Source: an uncultured Oscillospiraceae bacterium | GTDB lineage: Bacteria > Bacillota > Clostridia > Oscillospirales > Oscillospiraceae | DNA: 44,100 nucleotides | Assembly: GCA_947626315.1 (NCBI GenBank) | Contig: CANQRQ010000022.1 | Location: 1 to 44,100 of the forward strand | Direction of reading: 5' to 3' | In this document: positions 5,686-11,421 of the stretch, piece by piece | How positions within the stretch are numbered: position 1 is the stretch's first letter | Layout of the letters: each line of letters opens with the position of its first letter | Notes under the pieces: generated by a model | What the model saw: only the letters and a program-made list of their open reading frames with translations | The model's database searches: none | Told to the model about the DNA's origin: nothing | Made by a program: the position numbers and the translations under genes

Positions 5686-8600
5686 TCAGACAGCGACTTC
5701 CTCCACGCCGTTCTCGATCTCGGGCAGGCCGTTCTCGCTGATCATGTTCATGAAGTTGCCCAGGATGGCGGCGGCCTCCGCTCTGGTGACCACGCCGTCC
5801 GGCGTCAGAGCCTCGCTCACGTTCCCGTCGATGCCCTCGATCAGGCCCACCTTCGCGGCCCAGGCCATGGCATCGGCGGACCACTCGTCGATCTCATCGG
5901 CGTTTTCAATGTCGATCTGGCCGTTGGCGTCCACGTTCCAGCCGGCGGTCTTGGCAAAGCGCCACAGGAACGTGACCATCTCCTGGAGCGTGGTGACCTT
6001 GTCGCCATCGAAGCTGTCACCGTAGATATCCACGATGTTGTTGTCAGTGACCCAGGAGGCGGCGCTGGCATAGTAGTCGTCCGTCTTCACGTCTTTGAAC
6101 TTGGTCTCCGTGCTGGCGGCGGGGCTGCCGGCCATCCGGTAGATGGCGTCCACCACGTCGGAGAGGACAACCTTCTCCGCGGGCTTAAAGCTGGTGTTCT
6201 CATCCGCTTCCTTGCCGCCGCTGAGGAGGCCGGCCTCCAGGACCTGCTTGACGGAGCTGTAGTACCAGTCCTTGGTGGACACGTCCTTGACGGTTTCAAT
6301 AACGGGCATCTTGTAGCCGCAGGTCATGCAGGAGCCGTTGAGCACCACGTGGGCGGTCTTCTCAGCCTGGAAGCCGCAGATGGTGCACTCGCGCCAGTGG
6401 TACTGGCCGTTGGAGTGATAGCTGCCATAGCTGTGGGTATGGGCGGTCTCCGCTTCGGGATCGGCCGCGCCGCAGACGGTGCAGACGCCCTTGGAGAAGC
6501 TGTGGTTCGCCTTGCGGGTGATCTCGCCGCAGGTGCAGTCCTTCCAGTGGCTGGTGCCATCGGACCGCCAGGCGACGGAGTACTCATGCTCGTGGTTCTT
6601 ATCCAGCGCCTCGATCTTGGTGCCGGTGGCGATCTTCTTGCCGCAGGCGGAGCAGTACAGGTCGCCGGTGTAGCCGTCCTTGCCCACGGAGGCGGGCTTG
6701 GCGTCGCGCAGCTCGGTGCCGCCTACATGGTTCCCGCCGAAGCAGGTCTTATAGTTGGGATCGGCCGCGCCGCAGACGGTGCACTTGCCGTTGGCGAAGC
6801 TGTGGGCCGCCACATCGCCGTGCTCACCGCAGGAGCACTGATGCCAATGGCTGCCGCTGTCGCTCTTCCAGCTGCCGGTATAGCTGTGGGTGTGGCTGGC
6901 GCTCAGGGCCTTGATGGTGGTGCCGGAGCTGATCTTCTTGCCGCAGCCCAGGCAGTAGGTGTCGCCGGTGTAGCCGTCCTTACCCTGCTCGGCAGGCTTG
7001 TCGTTGCGCAGCTCCGTGCCGCCAACATGGCTGCTGGCCACCTTGCTGCCGTAGGCCGCGCCGCAGATGGAGCAGACGGGGGCGGTGGTGCAGTTGCCCT
7101 TACCGCCGGTATGGGCCGCGCTCTGGATGGCTGTGCAGCCGGGGTGCGTGCAGGTCCGGTAATGGGTGCTGCCGTTGGACATCCAGACGCCGAAGGAGTG
7201 GCTGCTGTAGCCTTGGCTCAGCACATAGCCGCAGGTGCTGCAGATGACGGAGCCGGTGCAGCCGCCGCTGGAGGCCTTGCCGGTATGGGAGCCGCTGTCC
7301 ACATAGCCGCACTTCGTGCAGGTCCGGCTGTGGCCGGTGGAGGTAGAGGTCCAGGGGCCGAAAGCGTGGTTGCCCTGGGCGCGAACAAGGGGATAACCGC
7401 AGACGCAGTCCTGACCCTCGGTGCAGCTGGTAGCGGAGGCGCTGGGCTTATCATGGGGGATGATGCTGGAAACCTGGGTGCAGCCCGGGTTGGAGCAGCG
7501 GATCTGGTGGCCGCCGTTGGAGGCAATGATGTAGCCGCCGCTGCCGTCAAAATTGTGCTGCATGCCGGACGCGCCGCCGGCGATACCGCAGACGGAGCAG
7601 GAGGAGAGGCGGGTGCAGTCCTTGGATGTGGTTCCTGTATGCTTCCCCACCTCGCTGCGCTGGGTGCAGCCGGGGTTGGTGCACTGCTTCCAGTGCTGGG
7701 TATTGTCGTGGCTGTAAGTAGAGGACCACTTATGGGTCATGGCCGCCTGCACGACCTTGCCGCAGACCGCGCATTTGACCGGCGTCATGCAGTTGCCGTC
7801 GTCCGCTTCCCACTTGTGGGGTTTCGTGGGGATGGCCTGCCGGTTCTGGGTCGCGCCGCAGCGGGAGCACTGCTGCCACTTGGAACCGGGCTTGGAGCAG
7901 GTGGCGGGCTCTTCCTTCCAGACCCAGTTGTGGCCGGAAGTGAGTACCTGCCTCTCCGTCTGGCGGCAGTCTAAGCAGTGCCGCTCCTGATAGGATTCGC
8001 AAGCGGTTCCTCCCTGGGTCCAGCCGCTCCAGTTGTGGCCGCCTTGCTCGAACACGACATTGTGGCAGGTGCCGCACTCTTTTCTAACATTCGGATGGCT
8101 GGGGCAGCCGCTGTCCGTCTCCGTTACTATCGTATAGTTGTGATTTCCCTTCGGCCAAGCGCCCTCGTCGGGCCGCCACATGTTGGACTCGCCTTTCTCG
8201 CCGCAAATACTGCACTCGTAATAGCCGCGCTGGGTTGTGCCGTAGTAGCAGTCATACGTGGACGACTCGATCTTCTGTACCCAATTGTGCACATGAGCCG
8301 GGGCAGCCGTCGCCGGGGGCTGGGTAGTCGTCTCCGGAGCCTGGGTGTTCGCGGGCTGCTCTGTCGTCACAGGCGGCTGGGTAGTCGTCTCTGTGGGCGC
8401 GGGATCCGCGGGCGCTGGTTCCACAGGCGCGGGTTCCACAGGCGCGGGATCCGCGGGCGGATCGCCCTGCGGGGCTCCCTCCGCGCCCGCCAGCGCACCA
8501 CCGCCGGCCGCCAGAGGCACCAGCTCCGAAGAGAAGGTGGTGACGATAGGCGAAGCCAGAACGGCGTTCAGGGCCTCGTTCTCGTACTCGTGTTCATGGT

Positions 8601-8694
8601 CATGCTCCTCCTGCACCAGGGCGACGCCCGCCAGGGTCAAAACCAGGGCGGCACACAGCAGGAAGGCCAGGAGCTTGCGGTGTTTGTTCTGCAT
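5686..8694 (-). CDS. Cys/His-rich repeat surface protein with three S-layer homology domains
   Basis: A 1002-residue secreted protein. The N-terminus has a signal peptide (1-27), then an acidic His-rich stretch EEHDHEHEYENE, then a Pro/Thr/Ala linker (about 75-135). The middle (about 137-795) is a chain of small modules, each with paired cysteines. I count roughly sixteen CxxC sites, mostly CxxCG, plus CTNPGC-like variants, interleaved with H-x-W/H-x-H positions; zinc-ribbon-like folding is inferred. The C-terminal 200 residues carry three S-layer homology repeats (about 802-856, 863-914, 928-984), which in this family bind secondary cell-wall polymer. It is monocistronic, with a GGAGG site before the ATG. 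Similar Cys-pair repeats occur in gut Firmicutes surface proteins; the ligand is unknown. Confidence 0.85.
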   Translation of the reverse strand: MQNKHRKLLAFLLCAALVLTLAGVALVQEEHDHEHEYENEALNAVLASPIVTTFSSELVPLAAGGGALAGAEGAPQGDPPADPAPVEPAPVEPAPADPAPTETTTQPPVTTEQPANTQAPETTTQPPATAAPAHVHNWVQKIESSTYDCYYGTTQRGYYECSICGEKGESNMWRPDEGAWPKGNHNYTIVTETDSGCPSHPNVRKECGTCHNVVFEQGGHNWSGWTQGGTACESYQERHCLDCRQTERQVLTSGHNWVWKEEPATCSKPGSKWQQCSRCGATQNRQAIPTKPHKWEADDGNCMTPVKCAVCGKVVQAAMTHKWSSTYSHDNTQHWKQCTNPGCTQRSEVGKHTGTTSKDCTRLSSCSVCGIAGGASGMQHNFDGSGGYIIASNGGHQIRCSNPGCTQVSSIIPHDKPSASATSCTEGQDCVCGYPLVRAQGNHAFGPWTSTSTGHSRTCTKCGYVDSGSHTGKASSGGCTGSVICSTCGYVLSQGYSSHSFGVWMSNGSTHYRTCTHPGCTAIQSAAHTGGKGNCTTAPVCSICGAAYGSKVASSHVGGTELRNDKPAEQGKDGYTGDTYCLGCGKKISSGTTIKALSASHTHSYTGSWKSDSGSHWHQCSCGEHGDVAAHSFANGKCTVCGAADPNYKTCFGGNHVGGTELRDAKPASVGKDGYTGDLYCSACGKKIATGTKIEALDKNHEHEYSVAWRSDGTSHWKDCTCGEITRKANHSFSKGVCTVCGAADPEAETAHTHSYGSYHSNGQYHWRECTICGFQAEKTAHVVLNGSCMTCGYKMPVIETVKDVSTKDWYYSSVKQVLEAGLLSGGKEADENTSFKPAEKVVLSDVVDAIYRMAGSPAASTETKFKDVKTDDYYASAASWVTDNNIVDIYGDSFDGDKVTTLQEMVTFLWRFAKTAGWNVDANGQIDIENADEIDEWSADAMAWAAKVGLIEGIDGNVSEALTPDGVVTRAEAAAILGNFMNMISENGLPEIENGVEEVAV
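6430..7029 (-). repeat. Tandem duplication of a 100-residue module in the surface protein
   Basis: Two successive 300-base units (7029-6730 and 6729-6430) encode modules that both open with HVGGTELR, continue through GKDGYTGD and a YCxxCGKKI pair, and end with CTVCGAADP. The exact 300-base period and high identity indicate a recent in-frame duplication within the Cys-rich region. Confidence 0.8.
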
Positions 8695-9689: not shown

Positions 9690-10370
9690 TCACCTGCTCA
9701 GGCTGATATCGCCGCCGCACTCGATGGCGGGCAGCTCCTCCTCCTGATAGGTCCCGCCGAAGTTCCACACCACATCCAGGTGGAAGCTCTTGCTCTCCCC
9801 CGGGGCCAGGCTCACGGTAAAGGTCTTGCTGGCCATGGGGGTGTTGCGGGCGGAGGGGCCGTCATAGTCCACGGCGGGGGCGTCCAGAGACAGATACTGC
9901 CCGTCCAGGTTCAGATTGATGGCGCCGGGCACCGCCGCCAGGTGCAGGCTGTACGAGTTCACCGACACGGACACGGTGATCTCCGCCTTGTCCCCTCCGG
10001 CGGTTTTGGCGCCCCAGTCCGCCTGCAGGTTCAGGCCAACGCCGGTGTCGGACTGGAAGCTTCCGGTGCCCAGCGCCATGTCCGCCGGGGCCGGGGCAGG
10101 CGTGGGAGTAGGGGCAGGCGCGGGTGTGGGGGCCGCGGTGGGCACCGGCGTGGGGACAGGGGTGGCCGCCGGCGCGGGAGCGGCGGGCGCGGTGCTGCTC
10201 GTGGGCGGGACGACGACAACGCCCTCGTCTCCCGGCGCCTCCGTCTCCGGCAGGCCGGCTTCCTCTCCGGCGGCAGGCCCGTCCCTCAGCTCGCCCAGGG
10301 CCGTGCCCACAACGGCGGCGATCAGCAAAAACAAAACGACAAACAGCACGGCGGCCGCTTTTCCTCTCAT
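9690..10370 (-). CDS. Membrane-anchored protein with Pro/Ala/Thr linker and beta-rich domain
   Basis: A 226-residue protein of unknown function. An uncleaved signal-anchor helix (6-26) is followed by an acidic segment and a long low-complexity Pro-Ala-Thr linker (about 55-97). The C-terminal domain (about 100-226) alternates polar and hydrophobic residues, as in a beta-sandwich. It includes ITVSVSVNSYSLHL and TFTVSLAPGESKSFHLDV, which resemble FxLYD/bacterial Ig-like modules. It is therefore probably an extracytoplasmic domain held away from the membrane. It is monocistronic, with its own terminator. AAGGAG lies 10 bases before the ATG. Upstream is the hairpin chain at 10422-10595, which may form part of its leader depending on which of two promoters is used. 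Confidence 0.65.
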   Translation of the reverse strand: MRGKAAAVLFVVLFLLIAAVVGTALGELRDGPAAGEEAGLPETEAPGDEGVVVVPPTSSTAPAAPAPAATPVPTPVPTAAPTPAPAPTPTPAPAPADMALGTGSFQSDTGVGLNLQADWGAKTAGGDKAEITVSVSVNSYSLHLAAVPGAINLNLDGQYLSLDAPAVDYDGPSARNTPMASKTFTVSLAPGESKSFHLDVVWNFGGTYQEEELPAIECGGDISLSR

Positions 10371-10402: not shown

Positions 10403-10432
10403 ATTATAATGATTATCGCAAAGCGAAAACAA
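10403..10432 (-). promoter_or_regulatory. Proximal promoter candidate for the 9690-10370 gene
   Basis: On the minus strand, TTGTTT (10432-10427), an 18-base spacer and TATAAT (10408-10403). Its -35 hexamer lies inside the first hairpin of the array, so stem extrusion or a bound protein there could affect the promoter. Confidence 0.45.
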
Positions 10433-10595
10433 TCGAGAGTTCGATTGTTTTCGCTACGCCAAACGACAAGTTTGGCAGCCTATGATTCTTTGAATCATTG
10501 GCGCGATGCTCATTGCAATGCGTATATGGCAAAACAGCACTGCTGTTTTGCTGAGCAGCCAAGCTGCTCGGCGAAACGCTTTTTGGCGTTTCGCC
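10422..10595. repeat. Chain of seven adjacent hairpins
   Basis: Seven inverted repeats follow one another with almost no linker. They are: H1 10422-10455 (15-bp arms), H2 10458-10476 (7), H3 10478-10502 (7 plus 3 across a T-T mismatch), H4 10503-10521 (7, one wobble and one mismatch), H5 10529-10551 (11), H6 10553-10569 (7) and H7 10570-10595 (10). Stem centres are 21-29 bases apart. Arms of H1, H2, H5 and H7 begin with similar words (GCGAAAAC, GCCAAAC, GCAAAAC, GCGAAAC); the others do not. It occupies most of the 357-base gap 10371-10728, and no reading frame of note is present. Confidence 0.85.
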
Positions 10596-10606
10596 ATCAT
10601 ATAAGC

Positions 10607-10635
10607 ATTATAATCTATCCATAGGCAAAAGTCCA
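10607..10635 (-). promoter_or_regulatory. Distal promoter candidate upstream of the hairpin chain
   Basis: On the minus strand, TGGACT (10635-10630), a 17-base spacer and TATAAT (10612-10607). If used, it would transcribe all seven hairpins as a 5' leader of about 230 bases for the 9690-10370 gene, or as a separate RNA. Confidence 0.5.
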
Positions 10636-10728: not shown

Positions 10729-11421
10729 TTACAGCTGGCGCTGGGCGTTGATCTTCACGCCGGGGCCCATGGTGGAGGCGGTGACGCAGGAGCGGATGTA
10801 CTGGCCTTTCGCCGCCGCGGGCTTGGCCCGGTTGATGGCGCCGATCAGGGCCACGTAGTTCTCATACAGCTTCTCCGCGCCAAAGCTGACCTTGCCAATG
10901 GGGCAGTGGATGATGTTGGTTTTGTCCAGACGGTACTCCACCTTGCCGGCCTTGGCCTCCTTGATGGCCTGGGTAATGTTGGGGGTGACGGTGCCGGCCT
11001 TGGGAGAGGGCATCAAGCCCTTGGGGCCCAGGGTCTTGCCCAGACGGCCCACAATGCCCATCATGTCGGGGCTGGCAATAACGGTGTCGAACTCGAACCA
11101 GTTCTCCTTCTGGATGCGCTCCACCAGATCCTGGCCGCCGGCATAGTCGGCGCCGGCCTGGAGGGCCTCGTCCACCCGCTCGGGCTTGCAGAAGACCAGC
11201 ACCCGGACCGTCTTGCCGGTGCCGTTGGGCAGGACGATGGCGCCGCGAACCTGCTGGTCTGCGTGACGGCCGTCGACACCCAGCTTTACATGCAGTTCAA
11301 CGGTCTCGTCAAACTTGGCCTTGCTGGCCTGGATCACCAGATTCAGGGCGTCCATGGGATCATAAAGGGTCTGCCTGTCAATGAGCTTCGCGCTCTCTTT
11401 ATAATTTTTTCCTCTAAACAA
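10729..11421 (-). CDS. rplA: 50S ribosomal protein L1
   Basis: A 230-residue L1 of normal length. It binds 23S rRNA at the mobile L1 stalk and in many bacteria represses its own operon by binding mRNA. Signature segments are visible: [10 protein letters not shown] at the start, the [23 protein letters not shown] block in the middle of the protein, and the TMGPGVKI ending. Translation starts at a TTG (11421) served by a strong AGGAGG site seven bases upstream. It is the last gene of rpmG-secE-nusG-rplK-rplA and is followed by a terminator. rplJ and rplL, often next, are absent here. A leader stem lies in the 100-base gap after rplK. Confidence 0.98.

Follow-up and report, generated by a model that had tools for sequence, protein, structure and literature searches.

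A 202-bp double-cloverleaf repeat of Clostridia, probably a non-autonomous mobile DNA element with its fold as the conserved feature

The window analysed here, 44,100 nucleotides from an uncultured Oscillospiraceae bacterium, contains a 202-bp repeat that we read, with a probability of about 0.7, as a non-autonomous mobile DNA element akin to MITEs and ERIC, in which the fold is what is conserved. The element moves, it inserts at a defined site by defined ends, and its pairing is kept along lineages. Double changes in the stems, the lack of an overall G-U bias, the lack of an orientation preference and the single-sided changes at orthologous copies favour folded DNA needed for mobility over an RNA function in the host.

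Inverted repeats are present at 10422-10595, as the first-pass annotation had reported, but that range is too narrow, since repeat boundaries taken from copies and empty sites extend the element to 10408-10609. Six of the seven hairpins originally proposed appear in the best fold; the remaining one, the fourth (about 10506-10525), is the seam CTCATT-GC-AATGCG, replaced by two outer stems lying outside or across the earlier range. The minimum-energy and centroid RNA folds agree in plan, with two adjoining units, each consisting of an outer stem around three hairpins (Table 1). Folding energies were -110.8 kcal/mol for the plus strand (z -12.95) and -107.2 kcal/mol for the minus strand (z -12.07), with none of 200 shuffles as good in either case, and a DNA-parameter fold of the array gave z -13.2. 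The arm words of GC(N)AAA(A)C type were found again (GCGAAAAC, GCCAAAC, GCAAAAC and GCGAAAC), and each end of the element carries AATGATTAT(6)GCGAAA as an imperfect terminal inverted repeat. The array had not been recognised as any named RNA family, and Rfam 15 likewise gave no gathering-score match in the window; at the element itself and at six loci of other families the matches were no more than weak chance ones.

Table 1. Positions of the element, its parts and the adjoining promoter-like sequence in the window.
Feature	Position	Strand	Basis
Whole element, units A and B, 202 bp	10408..10609	+	Copies and empty sites give boundaries
Left flanking AT	10406..10407		93 of 100 copies with AT on both sides
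Right flanking AT	10610..10611		93 of 100 copies with AT on both sides
Unit A: outer stem 10408-10419 / 10503-10514 around A1-A3	10408..10514	+	Folds; outer stem 86% Watson-Crick in 113 copies
Hairpin A1, 15-bp arms	10422..10455	+	Fold; 9/14 model pairs double-changed
Hairpin A2, 7-bp arms	10458..10476	+	Fold; 4/8 model pairs double-changed
Hairpin A3, 11-bp arms, one mismatch	10478..10502	+	Fold; 8/10 model pairs double-changed
GC seam between units (CATT-GC-AATG)	10515..10516		Sequence; GC also in 11/18 complete other-family copies
Unit B: outer stem 10517-10528 / 10598-10609 around B1-B3	10517..10609	+	Folds; 6/11 outer-stem model pairs double-changed
Hairpin B1	10529..10551	+	Fold; 7/10 model pairs double-changed
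Hairpin B2	10553..10569	+	Fold; 2/7 model pairs double-changed
Hairpin B3, 10-bp arms	10570..10595	+	Fold; 5/10 model pairs double-changed
Promoter-like TGGACT-17-TATAAT; -10 box straddles right end of element	10607..10635	-	Consensus scan; counterpart in G018

The element is dispersed in its own genome (2.68 Mb, 68 contigs), with 15 near-full copies and 6 further matches longer than 60 nt. Beyond its own genome, matches were obtained in 20 of 36 congeners (weakly in G011) and in 1 of 23 genomes from other genera, which makes 22 of the 60 genomes searched; G018, the nearest relative judged by rplA (92%), gave none. A 22-base word of hairpin A2 was located in 91 stretches of named genome contigs, with all record titles naming uncultured or metagenome-assembled Oscillospiraceae, Ruminococcaceae, Clostridiales, Clostridia or Eubacteriales, and the exact word is absent from viral contigs. 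A phage or plasmid origin was set aside, blastn against records of phages and plasmids returning nothing at E up to 1, and an assembly artefact was rejected on copies that are internal to contigs and have differing flanks; several contigs terminate in a copy, as expected from a repeat. Profile searching of the collected loci returned 205 non-redundant matches (113 full, 39 left-only, 41 right-only and 12 neither), many of the weakest being antisense self-matches. Gene context, based on rough longest-ORF calls, could be assigned for 70 of the 113 full copies, the other 43 lacking flank: 20 share the orientation of their tandem neighbours and 18 oppose it, 15 are placed between convergent and 15 between divergent genes, and 2 fall within ORFs, while element-free gaps in the same loci are 141 tandem, 66 convergent and 64 divergent. 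An open frame crosses the element in 32 of the 113 copies, and the frame differs between copies.

Other repeats were encountered alongside these copies. L011 (G000:C7) and L014 (G000:C8) also have flanking sequence in common, 48 bp to the left of the element and 121 bp to its right, placing the element within a larger repeat there. A separate dispersed repeat of about 360 bp (L073:1347-1710, G000:C26, with ends at 1347-1443 and 1593-1710) has ends that recur at about ten places in G018, the sister species lacking the double-cloverleaf element. The truncated copies L065 and L060 (G000:C5 and G000:C6) adjoin a similar stretch, 90% over 61 bases, which we take to be possibly the 3' part of an integrase gene.

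Movement was traced in filled and empty sites of the sister pair G034/G007, in which the flanks of shared copies are 96-98% identical. There are five clean filled/empty pairs with flank matches of 91-98% identity: L112, L113, L114 and L110 are filled in G034 and empty in G007, and the internally deleted copy L116 is filled in G007 and empty in G034. In all five the insert comprises the element from its AATG-type to its CATT-type end and two further bases. In four pairs a single AT at the empty site corresponds to an AT at either side of the insert; in the remaining pair, L113, the empty site is GT, and the filled site has GT on one side and AT on the other. Among the 100 full copies with a model match to both ends and at least 12 bases of flank, the seven without AT on both sides keep it on one side, and no duplicated non-AT dinucleotide was found. 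The L113 pair, together with the failure to find any non-AT site duplicated, speaks for joining across a shared AT rather than plain duplication, though on few cases. The flanks define a palindromic target, YRTT-AT-AAYR (TTATAA-like), and the end-to-end junction of the element, CATT-AT-AATG, fits this consensus too. Elements can also stand end to end via a single AT (L257 and L209, and L291/L280 in another family), which is the same build as A-GC-B.

Three further comparisons did not enter these counts: the pair L117/L173, whose 'empty' site is an AT-rich remnant, L118, whose site could not be aligned with G034, and the window copy with L004, whose sites are empty in G018 at a divergence too high to fix the junction. 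At the empty L113 site of G007 (L170), insertion fell exactly at a TAA stop codon-like triplet; the element end there restores TAATGA, and AATG ends carry stop codons in two frames.

The outer ends are also kept in modular variants, namely solo A (L062), solo B (L066), a one-hairpin unit (L061), a copy without B1 (L229), a copy without B1 and B2 (L199), and two copies in L263 (751-1101 and 6585-6936) that hold foreign DNA in hairpin A3 and differ in their flanks. This L263 pair, carrying the same foreign DNA in one genome, could reflect movement or conversion of an already loaded element. A hairpin of the form GCCATGTTT..GGTTGCC..GGCGAG..AAACGGC recurs in L238, L268 and L263, either close to an element end or within the element, and may represent a further family of small repeats. 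The plan of the element matches its own reverse complement (99 bits for L113, 90 bits for L046), so that units A and B look like mirror versions of a single unit. An origin by repeated palindrome insertion, as first suggested, was not borne out, though the two units do resemble two abutted elements.

Pairing is kept across divergent copies. In 22 diverse copies 95.7% of cells pair and 46 of 82 pairs show double changes, none of 500 shuffles reaches any of five measures, and slid structures pair at 31-49%; one of these copies served as the source of the structure, and the shuffling keeps relatedness. The structure was hand-written from the consensus, as RNAalifold on the gapped alignment gave a cut-down fold. 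Homologous loci and covariation, which the first-pass annotation had named as support for function, are thus both found. When all 113 full copies were scored at 83 pairs, 8668 cells were Watson-Crick, 140 G-U, 112 A-C and 261 other, with 198 gaps, and 31 pairs had double changes in at least 3 copies. Because an A-C cell reads as G-U on the opposite strand, neither strand is favoured overall, although single helices are uneven (G-U against A-C 36 to 10 in B3, favouring the plus strand, 37 to 20 in the outer stem of A and 2 to 14 in B1). In 972 copy pairs at 90-99.5% identity, 21% of unpaired and 4.9% of stem positions differ, and double-changed pairs number 1333 against 180 expected if the two sides were independent, a count that carries no probability because the copies share ancestry.

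At fixed sites the stems behave otherwise. Between the members of two orthologous pairs (L034/L036 and L115/L111), 8 of 332 stem positions (2.4%; flanks 2-4%) and 5 of 68 unpaired positions have changed, and all 8 stem differences are single-sided: 4 leave a pair missing in one species, 2 are G-C against G-U, and 2 set a wobble or mismatch in one copy against a better pair in the other. This fits, in a small sample, a fold maintained in moving lineages and not in resting copies. Arms changing freely between close strains had been listed as evidence against function; such change is seen for stationary copies, in these two pairs, but not in moving lineages, and a mobile element explains both the positive covariation and the stem decay. 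Covariation as in structured RNA is present, which is expected of folded DNA as well, while the excess of G-U over A-C looked for in structured RNA is absent (140 against 112 in the 113 copies, 24 against 25 across families). Part of the double changes could arise without selection, by template switching that makes palindromes perfect. Loop inversion was rejected as proof of cruciform flipping: 8 of 37 distinct A1 loops are matched in the set by their reverse complement, 2 by their complement and 0 by their reverse, and the A3 and B1 controls are nearly as high.

In the window, the array stands upstream of a minus-strand gene (9690-10370, without Pfam match) and downstream of rplA (10729-11421; Ribosomal_L1, E 7.5e-68). 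The strong terminator described earlier is present just 3' of rplA (10710-10681, minus strand), and of two promoter candidates one, on the minus strand at 10635-10607, passes a consensus scan that finds 1 against 0.7 expected from shuffles, whereas the other does not. The sister species G018, without the element, carries TGGACT-17-TATACT at that place, and the TATAAT box in this genome is built partly from the element end. As the copy sits in, and has rebuilt, the -10 box of gene 9690-10370, it is probably transcribed there as a folded 5' leader, as a by-product. A -35-like hexamer (at least 4/6) lies 16-18 bases from the end-made box at 18.5% of 200 element ends, against 10.6% (sd 1.9) with shuffled flanks; for hexamers of at least 5/6 the values are 5.5% and 1.2% (sd 0.7), and spacings of 10-12 give 13% and other spacings 6-10%. 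This excess makes landing in -10 boxes look real but minor. The target preference shows a route into a -10 box and its rebuilding, which puts a folded leader before a gene. Elsewhere in the window, 5686-8694 on the minus strand encodes a protein of 1002 residues that has many CxxC-like repeats and, at its C-terminus, an S-layer homology match (E 6.3e-12).

The same plan is met in other families. Model R1, built from the genus only, matched 10 of 394 genomes of the order, its own included, and inspection by eye recognised the full plan in G046 (f11, five copies), G163 and G305 (f16), G215 (f23) and G144 (f26), and half an element in G314 (f20); the matches in G333, G309 and G294 look unrelated and were not counted. 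Model R2, based on alignment A5 (22 sequences of f1, f11, f16 and f23), matched 3 of 391 genomes of the class, again with its own, adding the full plan in G600 (f89, six copies) and G777 (f43). By these structure models the double cloverleaf occurs in six families beyond its own. The majority of order and class genomes gave no match to R1 or R2, and with at most six candidates scored per genome under strict filters the match counts are lower bounds. Identity of other-family copies to the window copy is 53-63%, against a mean of 45-47% and a maximum of 59% after letter shuffling, so that sequence alone barely exceeds chance. All 18 complete other-family copies inspected (leaving out L290, interrupted by a contig end, and the partial L291) have AT on both sides, and where their seam is not GC it is GT, GA or CA. 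Alignment A5, which is structure-fitted and hence leans towards structure, has double changes in 62 of 82 pairs. An equal fold written in largely different letters in distant Clostridia suggests that the fold itself may be needed for movement.

Neither an autonomous version nor a mobilising enzyme was found in searches for PF13936 in 13 carriers, for Y1_Tnp and the end pattern in the own genome, and through 1.25 Mb of loci. PF13936 is present in 6 of the 13 carriers; the 7 in which it was not found include four genomes that are 68-85% complete, G163 (90%), and G215 and G144 (99%). No end pair matching the element was present in 17 IS30-like loci, and these two results do not support an IS30 partner. 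The own genome has a single Y1_Tnp match, a truncated relic with a stop, which removed a Y1 partner there from consideration. The end pattern revealed no longer element in this genome, all 19 places being known copies or pieces. In the 1.25 Mb of loci no parent insertion sequence with matching ends was noticed, and of 18 stray end-like sites L051 and L069-L071 were followed individually.

These results bear directly on an ordinary MITE moved by an IS30-like DDE transposase with a 2-bp AT duplication, its hairpins being passengers kept perfect by template switching. The inverted ends, the AT on both sides and some loop types found together with their reverse complements agree with such an origin, and IS30 is described as joining its ends with a 2-bp spacer, making 2-bp repeats, and targeting near-palindromic sites and its own ends (PMC9333248). 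We nevertheless consider it unlikely, given a fold common to seven families at near-chance identity, 100 copies without a duplicated non-AT dinucleotide, GT on one side only at L113, the different ends of the IS30-like loci, and carriers without PF13936, two of them 99% complete. A single-strand element (HUH, IS200/IS605 or REP-type), with one AT from the target and the other its own, would account for the hairpin-rich DNA and for an AT that need not be a duplication, and the own genome has its one Y1_Tnp match, albeit the relic; inverted ends and a palindromic target are not usually expected for this class, and we regard it as rather improbable.

The very stable fold, the strong covariation and the position of the window copy between a promoter box and a gene would suit a host-kept structured RNA, a 5' leader or small RNA spread through duplication. 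Such a role is nonetheless very improbable: G-U pairs lack an overall strand bias, copies lie with and against their tandem neighbours about equally often, stem changes at fixed sites are single-sided, a sister species does without the element, and Rfam gives no gathering-score match. Leader and small RNA had been offered beside a DNA element; the strand, orientation and decay tests disfavour both as the cause of conservation, and the dispersed copies, precise sites and empty sites uphold the DNA element. Small structured bacterial repeats are often left open between host RNA devices and parasites. Here covariation, strand bias, orientation and fixed-site decay are open to joint testing, and jointly they indicate a parasite with a fold that serves the parasite's mobility.

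For the mobile folded DNA thus preferred, a recombinase acting in trans would recognise the element as an extruded cruciform or single strand, and the same recombinase would join its ends. Because the junction CATT-AT-AATG fits the target consensus, the simplest form of insertion would be one in which this junction and a similar site are joined across the central AT. The A-GC-B build would most simply derive from two single cloverleaf elements once abutted likewise. More tentatively, at somewhat less than even odds, the element may represent class-wide mobile DNA defined by shape rather more than by letters, in which a double cloverleaf is read folded by a recombinase and joined across AT, the A-GC-B dimer is the conserved mobile unit, and stems are selected only at transposition, with resting copies decaying and moving lineages keeping near-perfect pairing. 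If an enzyme does read the fold, this would be a natural system of DNA recognition by shape across a class of common gut bacteria.

ERIC is one long palindrome at TA, whereas the present element consists of two cloverleaves at AT. ERIC is presented as a palindromic, non-coding, dispersed intergenic repeat treated as a MITE, with copy number varying strongly between taxa (PMC10969869), and the element resembles it in these respects; ERIC occurs in other taxa and, as RU-1, is given as about 127 bp (PMC2759123). At 202 bp, non-coding, mostly intergenic, in 15 near-full copies and with terminal inverted repeats, the element has the size, copy number, location and ends of a MITE. BOX, RUP and SPRITE are likewise small, structured, mobile repeats with inverted ends, described as almost restricted to S. 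pneumoniae and relatives, BOX being modular and BOX and RUP making target duplications (PMC3049150); unlike these, the present fold extends over seven families within one class. Bcr1 and other stem-loop families, those of Clostridium species included, are described as intergenic with a common predicted fold (PMC2267715); they were named per genome and are likened to the element by description. With IS30 the element has in common a 2-bp junction, self-targeting and a near-palindromic target, but IS30 is protein-coding and the IS30-like loci examined lack the present ends. Hairpin DNA as the mobile unit recalls REP/REPIN and IS200/IS605, REPs being given as 20-40 bp (PMC3733652). In searches of the open-access literature, preprints aside, we found no description of this element, nor of one elaborate fold in seven bacterial families at near-chance identity. 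ERIC, BOX, RUP and Bcr1 are nearest in kind, and we read the element as a new, structure-conserved form among MITE/ERIC-type elements.
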